DNA from: Collimonas silvisoli
GTDB lineage: Bacteria; Pseudomonadota; Gammaproteobacteria; Burkholderiales; Burkholderiaceae_D
Length of the DNA: 40,537 bases
Reading direction: 5' to 3'
Assembly (NCBI RefSeq): GCF_018305005.1
Contig: NZ_JAGQEG010000049.1
Location: 1-40,537 of the forward strand
Position 1 is the first letter of the stretch. Each line of letters starts with the position of its first letter. The translations under genes were made by a program, and so were the position numbers. Under the pieces are notes generated by a model. It saw nothing but the letters and a program-made list of their open reading frames with translations, made no database searches and was not told the DNA's origin. This document shows, piece after piece, positions 23,761-34,441 of the stretch.

Positions 23761-24000
23761 GATGTCGTCCTAAATGAATGTCCGACGTAGCAGCACGCGC
23801 AAACTGAGTGGCCCGCGATATCGGCTTGCTTCCCAGGCAAAGCCGCCATGGCGATACGCTGTCCGGCGGCAAGCTAGCCCGTATTATGTAAACGCAGGGA
23901 GCGGCGCCGCTATTCCAGCATATTCCAGCAATATGTTGATTTTTTATGGAAAAACGTTTGCGGGGCTGGCGCTGAGAGGTAGCCGGCAGCGCAACGGAGG

Positions 24001-24783
24001 TCAGCGCCACGCCTCGGGATGGCCGCCCAAGGCACTGCATACGTCAATCGCCATCGAACGCAGACGGGCCACCGATGTCTGACCGGACAGCGCATATCCC
24101 ATGCCCTGGCTTACCCAGTAAAAGGTAGCTCGCTTACCGTCTTGGAGCAGGCGGAACGCCGTGGTGTCCTTGCTTGCCGCGGTAACGTACAGGGTCAGCC
24201 GTTCACCCTTGCCGTTCTGATACATGAACTGCGCTGCCGGACCGGCTTCGCCAGGCAGCAAGCGCCCTCCCACCAGCATGTAACCGTATTCCTGCAGCGA
24301 TGGCGCGGTCAGCGGACGATCCAGACGCTTCGACAGCCAGTTAATCAAATGCTCTTCTTCGACTGCGGCAATTTCAACCGGATGCCGTTGCTCCGGTGCA
24401 TAGACAGCGTAGGCAATATCCGCACGCTTGGCGAACGCCGGCTGCTCGTCATAGAAATACGGCACCATCCAGCCAGACGCCAGCCCGCACAGCAAGCCCG
24501 CTGCGAGCCACCCGCCAGCCGCTCCGGCACGCCGCCACCACGGCGCCCGGCGCGGCAGGAAAATGCATCGGACATTCTCTTGCGGCATCGCAAACAAGGC
24601 CTTTAACGCAGCATTCTGGGCCCGATAATCGGCGACGCGCGCGCTATCCTGCGGATCGCTCGCCAGCCGTTCAACGACAGCGGTCCGCGCCGGGCCGGAA
24701 AGTTCATTGTCGACCCATGCCGATAGCGTCTGCAGATGGGCTTGCTCCGGATCCGGCAACGTCGAGAAGGTCTCTTCATTCAT
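24001..24783 (-). CDS. Transmembrane anti-sigma factor (zinc-free type)
   Basis: The 260-residue protein has an N-terminal anti-sigma domain (LQTLSAWVDNELSGPARTAVVERLASDP, residues 17-44) that lacks the His-Cys-Cys zinc ligands. One membrane helix (about 88-108) and a periplasmic C-terminal domain follow. The latter contains YMLVGGRLLPGEAGPAAQFMYQ and the tail FYWVSQGMGYALSG, which match equivalent segments of the second anti-sigma factor in this window. It should hold the ECF factor encoded 27 nt upstream inactive at the membrane until a signal arrives. The ribosome site is weak. Last gene of the three-gene operon. Confidence 0.85.
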   Translation of the reverse strand: MNEETFSTLPDPEQAHLQTLSAWVDNELSGPARTAVVERLASDPQDSARVADYRAQNAALKALFAMPQENVRCIFLPRRAPWWRRAGAAGGWLAAGLLCGLASGWMVPYFYDEQPAFAKRADIAYAVYAPEQRHPVEIAAVEEEHLINWLSKRLDRPLTAPSLQEYGYMLVGGRLLPGEAGPAAQFMYQNGKGERLTLYVTAASKDTTAFRLLQDGKRATFYWVSQGMGYALSGQTSVARLRSMAIDVCSALGGHPEAWR

Positions 24784-24810
24784 GGCGTGTTTCTCATTAC
24801 TTGTTTCTCG

Positions 24811-25341
24811 CTACTTGTTCCTTGCTGCATTCCTTACTACTTTAAGAGGCGGCCGCTTGCTGCCTGGATCTTCCTTCAACAAAGAGCGCATGTGCTCGCG
24901 GGCACGCGACAAGCGCGACATCACCGTGCCGACCGGGACGTTCAGGATGCCCGCCACCTGCTGATAACTGAGCTCTTCCAGGCCGACCAGCAACAGCACC
25001 TCGCGCTGCTCGACCGGCAGGCAATACAGCGCGTGCTGGACGTCGAGCAGGAACAGCCCGTCGACTTCGTCGGCCGGCGCCGCCATCGTACGCCAGGGCG
25101 CGCTTTCATCATCGACGGCGATCTCGCGGCGCTTGCGCAACTGGTCGATAAACAGATGCCTGAGGATGGTCAGCAGCCACGCCCGCAAATTGCTATCCGG
25201 CTGCAAGGTATGCCATCGGTGCAGGGCGCGCTCCGCTGTGTCCTGCACCAGATCGTCGGCCCACGCGGCATCGCCTGTCAGCGCGCGGGCGTAACGCCGC
25301 AGCACCGGCAGCCAGACCACCATGTCGGCCTCGAAACTCAT
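24811..25341 (-). CDS. ECF sigma-70 family RNA polymerase sigma factor (first module)
   Basis: The 176-residue protein has sigma region 2 (AWADDLVQDTAERALHRWHTLQPDSNLRAWLLTILRHLFIDQLRK, about 27-70) and region 4 (LPVEQREVLLLVGLEELSYQQVAGILNVPVGTVMSRLSRAREHMR, about 105-150), with no region 1 or 3, as expected for ECF factors. I chose the ATG at 25341 with GAGAAG before it; a GTG lies six codons earlier. It sits between the secreted Yx(FWY)xxD protein gene and the anti-sigma gene. A 7-bp GC hairpin (25417-25433) lies in the 102-bp gap before it and may tune its level relative to the first gene. Confidence 0.93.
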   Translation of the reverse strand: MSFEADMVVWLPVLRRYARALTGDAAWADDLVQDTAERALHRWHTLQPDSNLRAWLLTILRHLFIDQLRKRREIAVDDESAPWRTMAAPADEVDGLFLLDVQHALYCLPVEQREVLLLVGLEELSYQQVAGILNVPVGTVMSRLSRAREHMRSLLKEDPGSKRPPLKVVRNAARNK

Positions 25342-25443
25342 AAGGGTCTTCTCAAGCACCCAAACTAATCGTCAATAACTGCTGCGGCGGCTGTCGCCCC
25401 GGACGGCGTTTCGTTTCGCTGCGTTGCGCAGCGCCGCATTTCA

Positions 25444-25806
25444 TCAGGGTTTCGCCGTATGCCACACACCTCCCTTGCCGTCGCCGTTGGCGTCGCCAGC
25501 TTTCTGGTCCATGGCGAAACGGTACAGCGGATGTCCCTTGTAGGCCCATTGCCGCTTGCCGTCAGCGCCTGTCACAAAACTCCAATCGGGAGCGGCCTTG
25601 TCATAGGAATCCGCCAGTGCCGCCGGCCAATTCGCGGCACAGCTGCCGTCGCAAGCACTCTTGCCGGCTACCGTATCTTTATCAAAGATATACAGTGTCC
25701 GCCCCTCTGCATCGACCAGCTTGCCATTGACGGCCTTGGGTGCTTCGGCCAAGGCGGGTGCCGCAAGAGTGGCGCAGCTCAGCAGCAGAAATATGGTTTT
25801 TCGCAT
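25444..25806 (-). CDS. Secreted COG4315-type protein with Yx(FWY)xxD repeats
   Basis: The 120-residue product has a Sec signal peptide (MRKTIFLLLSCATLAAPALA) and two motifs of the family: YIFDKD (39-44) and YRFAMD (95-100). Cys 52 and Cys 56 lie in the SACDGSCAANWPA segment, typical of this group. Its role is unknown; members are often encoded with ECF sigma factors. It is the first gene of an operon with sigma and anti-sigma genes. A GAGGAG site precedes the ATG, and a GGAAT-type ECF promoter lies about 80-100 bp upstream. It is a likely main target of its own sigma factor. Confidence 0.88.
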   Translation of the reverse strand: MRKTIFLLLSCATLAAPALAEAPKAVNGKLVDAEGRTLYIFDKDTVAGKSACDGSCAANWPAALADSYDKAAPDWSFVTGADGKRQWAYKGHPLYRFAMDQKAGDANGDGKGGVWHTAKP

Positions 25807-25882
25807 GATGTCTCCTCAGGATGATCGATAGAAAAATGCAGCCGGAAACCAGCGCTGGGAATGATGGCTGGGATAGCAGTTA

Positions 25883-25909
25883 AACGTCCGGCATGACTAG
25901 TTTATTCCA
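25883..25909 (-). promoter_or_regulatory. Candidate ECF promoter for the COG4315-sigma-anti-sigma operon
   Basis: On the minus strand a GGAATAAA -35-like element (GGAAT at 25909-25905) is followed after 17 nt by CGTTT (25887-25883), close to the usual ECF pattern GGAAC-N16/17-CGTT. It lies 77 nt upstream of the first ATG. The same GGAATAAA core recurs in the two promoters of the second ECF module. Confidence 0.5.
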
Positions 25910-31898: not shown

Positions 31899-31927
31899 CG
31901 TCACTGCATCTGACAGATGCAGTGACG
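31899..31927 (-). promoter_or_regulatory. Perfect 13-bp-arm palindrome in the GST leader
   Basis: CGTCACTGCATCT and AGATGCAGTGACG are exact inverted copies separated by three bases, ending 30 nt upstream of the GST start codon. No T-run follows on the minus strand. It could be an operator for a dimeric repressor or an mRNA hairpin. The adjacent 31928-32025 stretch shows no gene. Confidence 0.6.
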
Positions 31928-32607: not shown

Positions 32608-33363
32608 CTATTGACGTACCGTGGAGCGCACCATCCCCACAAATTTTTCCAGCTCGCCGGCAGCCAGATCGGATACCGTCCAGTAACTCATGCCATCCCA
32701 GGTCCAGCGCACCAGATGATAGCCTTGACGATTTTGCAACTGCGGCGCAGCATCTTTGTCGCTGCTCGGCCATATATACAAATTAATCGGGTGTTGCGCG
32801 CGCCGGTAGATCAGCGCGGCCACCGGCCGGCCGCCGAGATAATCGAGGCGGCCGCCGATCAGCGGAAAACCCTGTGGCGCCAGATCGACCACCGGCGGAG
32901 AAAAATTCAGCTTACCGTTGAACCAGGGTTTTACCGTGTGCTGGTCGCTTGACGCCACATCCGACAGATGATCTACCTGGAGCGAACGAACATGGCTGGC
33001 AACCACTTCTTCAGTCAACCTGTCCTGGTCCGACGGCAAATTGAGGTACAGACCAACGCTCCATGCCAGCGCCAGTCCGGCTGCCATGGCGGCGCCGAGA
33101 TTGAGCCAGTTGATATGCCAGGGCTTGGCGCGCGGAGCATCTTGCGGCAACGCAGCATTGATGCGGTGCGCAAGATGCGCCGGAGCATCGAAGTATGGCG
33201 CCTCCTTCTTAAAGCGCGCGCTGACGATGCGCTGCGCTGCATATTCGCGCTGACAATCGACACAGCTCTCTAGATGGCGCTGCACCTCCCGCGCCTCTAC
33301 CACGCCTAGCTCTTGATCTGCATAAGCCGGCAACAGCGCCAGTATTTCCTGATGATCCATCAT
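32608..33363 (-). CDS. Transmembrane anti-sigma factor with zinc-binding domain
   Basis: The 251-residue protein has an N-terminal zf-HC2 type anti-sigma domain with ligands His 30, Cys 34 and Cys 37 (HLESCVDC). A single membrane helix follows (about 86-109, LNLGAAMAAGLALAWSVGLYL), then a periplasmic C-terminal domain. GFPLIGGRLDYLGGRPVAALIYRR and WDGMSYWTVSDL parallel segments of the other anti-sigma factor at 24.0-24.8 kb. The ATG overlaps the sigma-factor stop (ATGA), implying coupled translation. It should bind and release the ECF factor encoded upstream. Confidence 0.9.
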   Translation of the reverse strand: MMDHQEILALLPAYADQELGVVEAREVQRHLESCVDCQREYAAQRIVSARFKKEAPYFDAPAHLAHRINAALPQDAPRAKPWHINWLNLGAAMAAGLALAWSVGLYLNLPSDQDRLTEEVVASHVRSLQVDHLSDVASSDQHTVKPWFNGKLNFSPPVVDLAPQGFPLIGGRLDYLGGRPVAALIYRRAQHPINLYIWPSSDKDAAPQLQNRQGYHLVRWTWDGMSYWTVSDLAAGELEKFVGMVRSTVRQ

Positions 33364-33908
33364 GCCTCCTGCCTGGCCGGCGCAAGAATTGCCGCCAGCA
33401 ATTTACGGCCGCGCCCGAGGCGCGACATTACGGTACCGATGGGAATCCCGACGATGGCGGCGATCTGTTTATAGGACAGCTCTTCCAGCTCGCGCATCAC
33501 CATCACCTCGCGGAACTCCAACGGCAAGGCTTGCAGCGCCTGCTGCAACTGCCGCTCGCTGTCTTTCTGCATCAGCAGCGTCTCCGGATTGTTGTCGGCA
33601 GATTCCGTGCCGACGATGCCGCAGGCGTTGAAATTGTGCATTTCCTCGTCAAAGGCGGTTTCCTGCCGCTGCTTCTGGTGCTCCTGATACCAGGTGTAGA
33701 AAGTATTGCGCACGATTGCCAGCAACCAGGCGCGGCTGTCTTCGCCATGAAAACCGTCGAAAAATTTAAAAGCCCGCAAATACGCCTCCTGCACCACGTC
33801 CTCCGCGTCCTGTCGGCTGTGCGTAAGCCAGCACGCCAGGTTGAACGCTGAGTTCAAGTGCGGCAGCACGCTTGCTTGGAATCGCTGTTTTTTTGTGGGT
33901 TCGATCAT
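33360..33908 (-). CDS. ECF sigma-70 family RNA polymerase sigma factor (second module)
   Basis: The 182-residue protein shows region 2 (SRQDAEDVVQEAYLRAFKFFDGFHGEDSRAWLLAIVRNTFYTWYQE) and region 4 (LPLEFREVMVMRELEELSYKQIAAIVGIPIGTVMSRLGRGRKLL). The frame is open further upstream, but the ATG at 33908 (MIEPTKKQRF) gives the usual ECF N-terminus and has GGAAA before it. It is the first gene of a two-gene operon with its anti-sigma factor. A GGAAT-N16-CGGTC promoter begins 31 nt upstream, indicating autoregulation. The divergent neighbour with a mirror promoter is a broken gene. Confidence 0.93.
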   Translation of the reverse strand: MIEPTKKQRFQASVLPHLNSAFNLACWLTHSRQDAEDVVQEAYLRAFKFFDGFHGEDSRAWLLAIVRNTFYTWYQEHQKQRQETAFDEEMHNFNACGIVGTESADNNPETLLMQKDSERQLQQALQALPLEFREVMVMRELEELSYKQIAAIVGIPIGTVMSRLGRGRKLLAAILAPARQEA

Positions 33909-33938
33909 CCAGACGTTTCCAGGGTTCATGTAGCACAA

Positions 33939-33964
33939 GACCGCTGATACCAGAAATTTATTCC
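33939..33964 (-). promoter_or_regulatory. ECF promoter of the sigma/anti-sigma operon
   Basis: Minus strand: GGAAT (33964-33960) and CGGTC (33943-33939) are separated by 16 nt, a good ECF-type -35/-10 pair. The -35 is embedded in AATTTATTCCCG (33955-33966), which has an exact inverted copy at 33995-34006. Confidence 0.65.
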
Positions 33965-33996
33965 CGGAAAACCGGCTCAAATAAGAATCTCAAGCG

Positions 33997-34022
33997 GGAA
34001 TAAATTACAGGGTACACCGGTA
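33997..34022 (+). promoter_or_regulatory. Mirror-image ECF promoter facing the metallophosphoesterase remnant
   Basis: Plus strand: GGAAT (33997-34001), a 16-nt spacer and CGGTA (34018-34022) repeat the geometry of the divergent promoter, with -35 inside CGGGAATAAATT (33995-34006). It lies 54 nt before the ATG of the broken metallophosphoesterase gene, so that gene was probably a regulon member. Confidence 0.65.
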
Positions 34023-34075
34023 TAGGGTTTTGTCGATCAAGTGATCGCTATAACCACGATAATTACGGAGGTGTT

Positions 34076-34253
34076 ATGGACCATGCCATCAAGCGGCGCA
34101 GCTTCCTCAAGCTGGCCGGGCCAGGCGGCGCCATCTATGTTTCCGGTCTGAGTAGCTGAGCCAGCCCCGCTGCAAAACCGGGAAACGCCAATGAGGACTT
34201 CTTTTTGTCCAGCTATCCGATACCCACTGGGGTTTCGACGAGCCGCCCAATCC
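34076..34253 (+). pseudogene. 5-prime remnant of a Tat-exported metallophosphoesterase
   Basis: A GGAGG site and ATG begin MDHAIKRRSFLKLAGPGG, a twin-arginine signal (RRSFLK). The frame hits TGA at 34157 after VSGLSS; a single base change from TTA would explain this. The same frame continues ASPAAKPGNANEDFF, and then a one-base shift restores VQLSDTHWGFDEPPNP, where SDTHWG is the first metal-binding D-x-H motif of the metallophosphoesterase family. Homology stops at about 34253, where sequence from an opposite-strand YdeI-like gene begins. It therefore carries a nonsense mutation, a frameshift and a large 3-prime deletion. The retained ECF-type promoter shows that it was controlled by the neighbouring sigma factor. 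Confidence 0.75.
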
Positions 34254-34441
34254 AGCATGCGGGTGAAATCCTGGATGCGCTTGGCGCGGGTCTCGGCTTT
34301 TTTAGCGGTTTGAATCCTGAACAGGACAGCGTAGCGATTACTACTGTTGAGAGTGGCGAAAAATGCCTGCGCCCGTGGACTGGCGTCCAGCGCCGCCTGG
34401 AAATCCGTCGGCACGGTCGAGCTGCTCGCCGAGCCCCATCG
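34251..34441 (-). pseudogene. C-terminal remnant of a YdeI/OmpD-associated family gene
   Basis: On the minus strand about 63 codons read RWGSASSSTVPTDFQAALDASP, then AQAFFATLNSSNRYAVLFRIQ and AKKAETRAKRIQDFTRMLD. This matches, from memory, the C-terminal end of YdeI/OmpD-associated proteins (about 190 residues when whole). The N-terminal two thirds are absent, replaced upstream by the promoter region of the MarR gene. The last residues run into the metallophosphoesterase remnant. The frame is open, but the product would be a fragment without a normal start. Confidence 0.65.

Follow-up and report, generated by a model that had tools for sequence, protein, structure and literature searches.

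Mirrored ECF-type promoters predicted between a sigma/anti-sigma operon and a metallophosphoesterase relic in Collimonas silvisoli

The intergenic region upstream of an ECF sigma factor gene in Collimonas silvisoli is best read as a pair of independent divergent promoters, which would be recognized by the adjacent ECF sigma factor and probably also by its paralogue (probability roughly 0.85). In the window, by which the whole analysed stretch of 40,537 nucleotides is meant, the arrangement is most likely a sigma/anti-sigma switch under its own control, with a local effector, a metallophosphoesterase (MPE), that has become a relic. The -35 boxes lie in two 12-bp arms that are exact inverted copies with a gap of 28 bp, and pairing ends at 12 bp both outward and inward. 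The left arm, AATTTATTCCCG (33955-33966), is the extended -35 box of the sigma-side promoter and the right arm, CGGGAATAAATT (33995-34006), is that of the MPE-side promoter, neither arm being assigned to a strand; the arm core GGGAATAAA is the portion conserved at other loci. The predicted promoter of the sigma/anti-sigma operon (33939..33964, minus strand) has a -35 GGAAT at 33964-33960, followed after 16 nt by a -10 CGGTC at 33943-33939, and the predicted promoter toward the MPE relic (33997..34022, plus strand) has GGAAT at 33997-34001, again 16 nt, and CGGTA at 34018-34022. Both are exact matches in the genome-wide search described below. These arms and boxes had been proposed in the first-pass annotation and were borne out in coordinates and letters; its further proposal, that one promoter reads toward the ECF/anti-sigma operon and the other toward a broken MPE gene, agrees with the gene layout as predicted. 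Sigma-70 promoters and terminators were sought at 33800-34300 and none were found.

The product of the sigma factor gene (33360..33908, minus strand, with a longer frame from 33929) scores above cut-off for Sigma70_r2 and Sigma70_r4_2 and contains no Sigma70 regions beyond these two. Initiation is probably at 33908 rather than at the upstream ATG at 33929, because the longer frame has TGA as its seventh codon in 9/14 genus orthologues, the window included; a start at 33908 would leave space for a short leader past the predicted -10. The next gene (P0002, 32608..33363, minus strand) encodes the anti-sigma factor, a zf-HC2 protein with a zinc-finger-type HX3CX2C motif, a hydrophobic stretch, one predicted membrane helix and a periplasmic domain, in which the residues around DQHTVKPWF are near-invariant. 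Compared with the PDB, the structure model of the anti-sigma factor (mean pLDDT 82.1, pTM 0.57) resembles RseB/MucB and ChrR only weakly and in part (best E 1.1e-3, TM ~0.25). It is the periplasmic domain, at residues ~112-251, that shows the weak partial fold match to RseB and MucB, which are envelope-stress sensors.

Within the genus, the sigma gene is present in 14 of the 15 genomes, the exception being a genome of 1.7 Mb. The proposal had been staked on conservation of the boxes at orthologous sigma genes, and the sigma-side box (GGAAT-N18-GT) is intact at all 14 genus loci, with the mirror kept at 19/19 family loci outside the genus (L073-L091), each of which also has a divergent MPE gene. 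A comparison with relatives carrying an intact MPE had likewise been suggested; the local MPE is intact at the same place in 8/14 genus loci and lost in six, the window among them, and the MPE-side box is intact in 8/8 loci with the gene versus 2/6 where it is gone, and one of these two boxes is the window's (Fisher p 0.015, which ignores shared descent). All six genomes without the local MPE have an MPE at a second locus, and the local gene is lost in 6/8 genomes with a second MPE versus 0/6 without one (p 0.0097, again taking no account of shared descent). In the window, the relic of the Tat MPE gene (34076..34207, plus strand) meets a stop after 27 codons and its similarity ends near residue 56. 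Adjoining it is the relic of a YdeI/OmdA-type gene (34250..34438, minus strand; OmdA), of which the C-terminal part is left (residues 138-200, 79%). In relatives, a cupredoxin gene lies between the MPE and YdeI/OmdA genes, and no match to it was found in the window locus. The rightward promoter in the window appears to be a recent relic, its effector genes having been deleted or broken.

A possible hairpin, CGATC-AAGT-GATCG, is present in the MPE leader (34034..34047, plus strand). The palindrome, CGATC-NNNN-GATCG, follows the predicted start, precedes the ribosome site and is also seen in related MPE genes. Two of its pairs are changed on both sides among 16 sequences, as happens in 19/500 shuffles, and 90.6% of cells are paired, a value equalled in 84/500 shuffles; the hairpin may be taken as a lead, for which the support from pair changes is weak.

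Outside the genus, 30/195 family genomes match at E<=1e-50 and 16/300 order genomes at E<=1e-45. In six of the 19 family loci mentioned above, cytochrome c is also found on the divergent side. Among the 14 new order loci (L177-L190), the mirror is present in 7/8 with a divergent MPE, in 0/1 with an upstream MPE, and in 2/5 of those without an MPE within the fetched 3.0-3.5 kb. The named loci are the best 80 of 572 confirmed relatives, from named collections that may leave out records of the window's genus. In these best 80 of 572, the mirror accompanies a divergent MPE in 16/23 loci versus 0/10 with a same-strand upstream MPE; it is present in 0/2 with a downstream MPE, in 3/26 with an anti-sigma gene and no MPE, and in 0/19 with neither. 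The mirror as defined is absent from seven of these 23 divergent-MPE loci, and a stricter test in which C.GT is also required retains 9/23, the expectation from mononucleotide shuffles being ~0.02 under the looser definition and 0.00 under the stricter one. At the ten same-strand loci of the best 80, GGAATAAA is found just ahead of the MPE in nine and GAGAATAAA in the tenth, with GT at the fixed -10 distance in six and AT (ATC) in four. The box therefore follows the gene, since the mirror goes with a divergent MPE and GGAATAAA precedes the MPE where both genes share a strand. The sigma module is distributed over beta-, gamma- and alphaproteobacterial records, together with records labelled Acidobacteria, Verrucomicrobia, Gemmatimonadetes and Planctomycetes.

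These arrangements bear on whether the inverted repeat could instead be an operator for a dimeric regulator, with the ECF-like boxes incidental, which is considered highly improbable. Such a repeat is indeed rare by chance, as dinucleotide shuffling of the intergenic region (167 bp) gave an exact 12-bp inverted repeat separated by <=60 in 1/5000 cases, and this would suit an operator; however, a lone box without a mirror partner is retained where gene order differs, and GT stands at a fixed distance after each arm. In 60 loci chosen by back-to-back GGAATA alone (the -10 was unused in the choice, and the loci are not independent by descent), the fixed -10 distance holds G in 59/60 and T in 59/60 on the sigma side, and G in 54/60 and T in 56/60 on the other side. 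The distance from GGAAT to GT is constant at 18 nt among relatives, whereas the gap between the boxes varies from 1 to 68 bp across the 60 loci and shows no helical phase after removal of similar loci (15 left; R 0.22, p ~0.47). As the spacing between boxes varies, the inverted repeat as such is probably not the functional unit and is better described as two back-to-back copies of an extended -35 box. Helical phasing of the -35 boxes had been considered, as the raw gaps placed 29/60 loci in one of five phase bins, and was not upheld. Across the whole window there are six exact 12-bp inverted-repeat matches, compared to a mean of 0.25 and a maximum of 4 in 40 shuffled windows; three of the six are registers of a single repeat at 31899-31901.

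Searching the genome with GGGAATAAA-N13-CGGTN returned four exact sites in 5,656,530 bases, against an expectation of ~0.17 (13 fixed bases, equal base frequencies), and all four belong to the mirror pairs of two paralogous sigma loci, one pair at each. The second pair, C111:63351-63376 (minus strand) and C111:63407-63432 (plus strand), lies upstream of a sigma gene whose product is 52% identical to the window's sigma. The first-pass annotation had expected a direct regulon prediction for the sigma factor, and this held in part: the search yields a small regulon of two loci, but it cannot be pinned on one sigma alone, because a paralogous sigma factor stands behind the same boxes. A wider regulon was rejected, as the two one-mismatch sites are intragenic, one on C99 in a cytochrome oxidase frame and the other on C176 in a frame resembling a transposase, and sites with <=2 mismatches show no excess over the reversed-pattern control (86 versus 127). 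Two sites with a 14-nt spacer also occur in the genome (C165 and C189). With the looser pattern GGGAATNAA-N13-CNGTN, 39 sites were obtained in the 15 genus genomes, of which 30 are at the two sigma loci, and the remaining nine compare with 11 matches for the reversed-pattern control.

At the second locus, sigma, anti-sigma, cytochrome c, MPE and cupredoxin genes follow one another on one strand. The MPE there is intact, Tat-type and an open frame of 301 aa, and an extra box, GGGAATATTT...GTTATA, lies ahead of cytochrome c in 8/8 second loci compared. The effectors are a Tat-type calcineurin-like phosphoesterase and a cupredoxin with a CoxB copper-domain profile, joined at the second locus by cytochrome c. 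In seven genomes (L039 and six related loci), the second mirror keeps its leftward half (G000:C111:63351-63376, minus strand) with no evident gene behind it, and this half is directed antisense into a gene of lipoprotein-like type. Like the rightward promoter of the window it may be a relic, or it may drive an RNA; no Rfam match was found in the four loci searched. Behind this promoter, no common ATG or GTG frame was found in the seven genomes, and only a TTG-started frame of varying length recurs (6/7 genomes). A short frame starting MRNDHK was seen by eye in the stretch that separates the mirror of the second locus from its sigma gene (L039 upstream of 5599, and L040-L042).

The window also contains a second, unrelated sigma/anti-sigma operon (24001-25908, minus strand), composed of a promoter-like GGAATA-N17-GT with a -10 of CGTT (25908-25884), a Lipoprotein_15 gene (25444-25806), the window's other sigma factor gene (24811-25359) and an anti-sigma-like gene (24001-24783). 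A fourth match to GGAATA-N17-GT in the window is located at 23892-23916 (minus strand). The promoters could in principle be real and yet be served mainly by the paralogue or by this other sigma rather than by the adjacent one, which is judged improbable. The same boxes are found at the paralogue's own promoters, the other operon has GGAATA and GT at the same distance, and the related sigma factors RpoE1 and RpoE4 of S. meliloti are reported to have overlapping activities (available part of PMC3511301). However, the paralogue is absent at E<=1e-30 from 7/14 sigma-bearing genus genomes, and the sigma-side box is retained in all seven and both boxes in 6/7. The -10 of the window's other promoter is CGTT, not CGGTM, and the boxes remain with the adjacent sigma gene throughout the family and the order.

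With the two boxes taken as independent promoters of the adjacent sigma factor, the membrane anti-sigma factor presumably holds the sigma until a signal frees it, whereupon the sigma, in the RNA polymerase holoenzyme, would bind GGGAATAAA-N13-CGGTM on either strand and set the two transcript starts. Leftward firing would amplify the sigma/anti-sigma operon in a positive feedback, and rightward firing, in relatives, would switch on the Tat-exported MPE and the cupredoxin. In the window's genome, the effector set survives at the second locus, where a paralogous sigma and related boxes accompany it. It is tentatively suggested, at somewhat less than even odds, that the regulon has been rewired: the local MPE operon decayed, and the window's sigma was kept for driving the cytochrome c-MPE-cupredoxin genes of the second locus in trans. 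If so, two paralogous sigma factors with near-identical boxes would share one effector set, with cross-talk between them. One of the six genus genomes without the local MPE, G012, keeps the cytochrome c, MPE and cupredoxin genes and the GGAATA box before cytochrome c at its second locus (L173, G012:C24:215500-225500). The second sigma gene is absent from this 10-kb stretch, and of the second anti-sigma only residues 152-234 are left, the front of the gene being gone; the single sigma gene of this kind in G012 at E<=1e-30 is the orthologue of the window's sigma.

For an ECF sigma module, the comparison provides a sharp and testable promoter rule, CGGGAATAAA-N13-CGGTM, which links this module to an uncharacterised periplasmic set of MPE, cupredoxin and often cytochrome c. 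The genus may serve as a natural experiment in promoter decay after effector loss and in one regulon common to two sigma factors. A pairing of the sigma module with an MPE was not found described in the open-access literature searched, of which the available parts were covered; the main ECF reclassification may catalogue it.

Among known systems, the SigR/SigH type combines a zinc-finger anti-sigma factor with a GGAAT-like -35. SigH (5zx2 and others) is the nearest solved relative of the window's sigma (PDB profile E 3.2e-34, single sequence 1.7e-26); the anti-sigma factor here differs in having a predicted membrane helix, and that of the paralogue in being without the zinc motif. The scores stay below the cut-offs of the curated models, with 117.3 versus 251.55 bits for NCBIfam SigH_actino, 33.2 versus 62.5 bits for antisig_RsrA and 227.2 versus 248 bits for the NCBIfam PRK12533 sigma model.

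The ECF26 group is the other close comparison. Its promoter consensus, in the available part of PMC6180224, is -35 GGAATA and -10 GT, which is also seen here, and in S. meliloti its members (RpoE1, RpoE3, RpoE4 and RpoE6) have a sigma gene followed by a one-helix membrane anti-sigma (parts of PMC6180224 and PMC3511301). The anti-sigma factor here is similar in its N-terminal anti-sigma domain, one predicted membrane helix and periplasmic domain. In the same sources, RpoE6 is divergent from a serine protease gene, and the RpoE4 regulon includes cytochrome c and a blue copper protein. In contrast to the CGGTC and CGGTA found here, the ECF26 sulfite-oxidase promoters have a -10 of CGTC (available part of PMC6527743), and the ECF26 neighbours are a sulfite oxidase, a lipoprotein (Lipoprotein_15) or a protease, whereas here they are MPE, cupredoxin or cytochrome c. 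Compared with an RpoE6-like pSymA protein, taken for RpoE6 by its divergent serine peptidase gene, the window's sigma has 36% identity (79.7 bits) and the window's other sigma 43% (117 bits). The -35/GT rule fits ECF26, but a clear placement of the sigma there is not supported by its -10, its neighbours or its distance from the RpoE6-like protein. The operon of the window's other sigma is similar to the rpoE1 operon of ECF26, which includes a lipoprotein gene, and has the same -35 as the mirror promoters. ECF16 (S. meliloti RpoE7 and Brucella BcrS) is alike in uniting a sigma/anti-sigma pair with a target operon, as far as the available text goes, but has unlike effectors and a different promoter, (T/C)GTAAC-N17-CGAA (part of PMC8315932). 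The targets of RpoE7 in S. meliloti are transcribed divergently from its own gene, and divergent, autoregulated ECF targets are already known from RpoE6 and RpoE7 (available part of PMC6180224).
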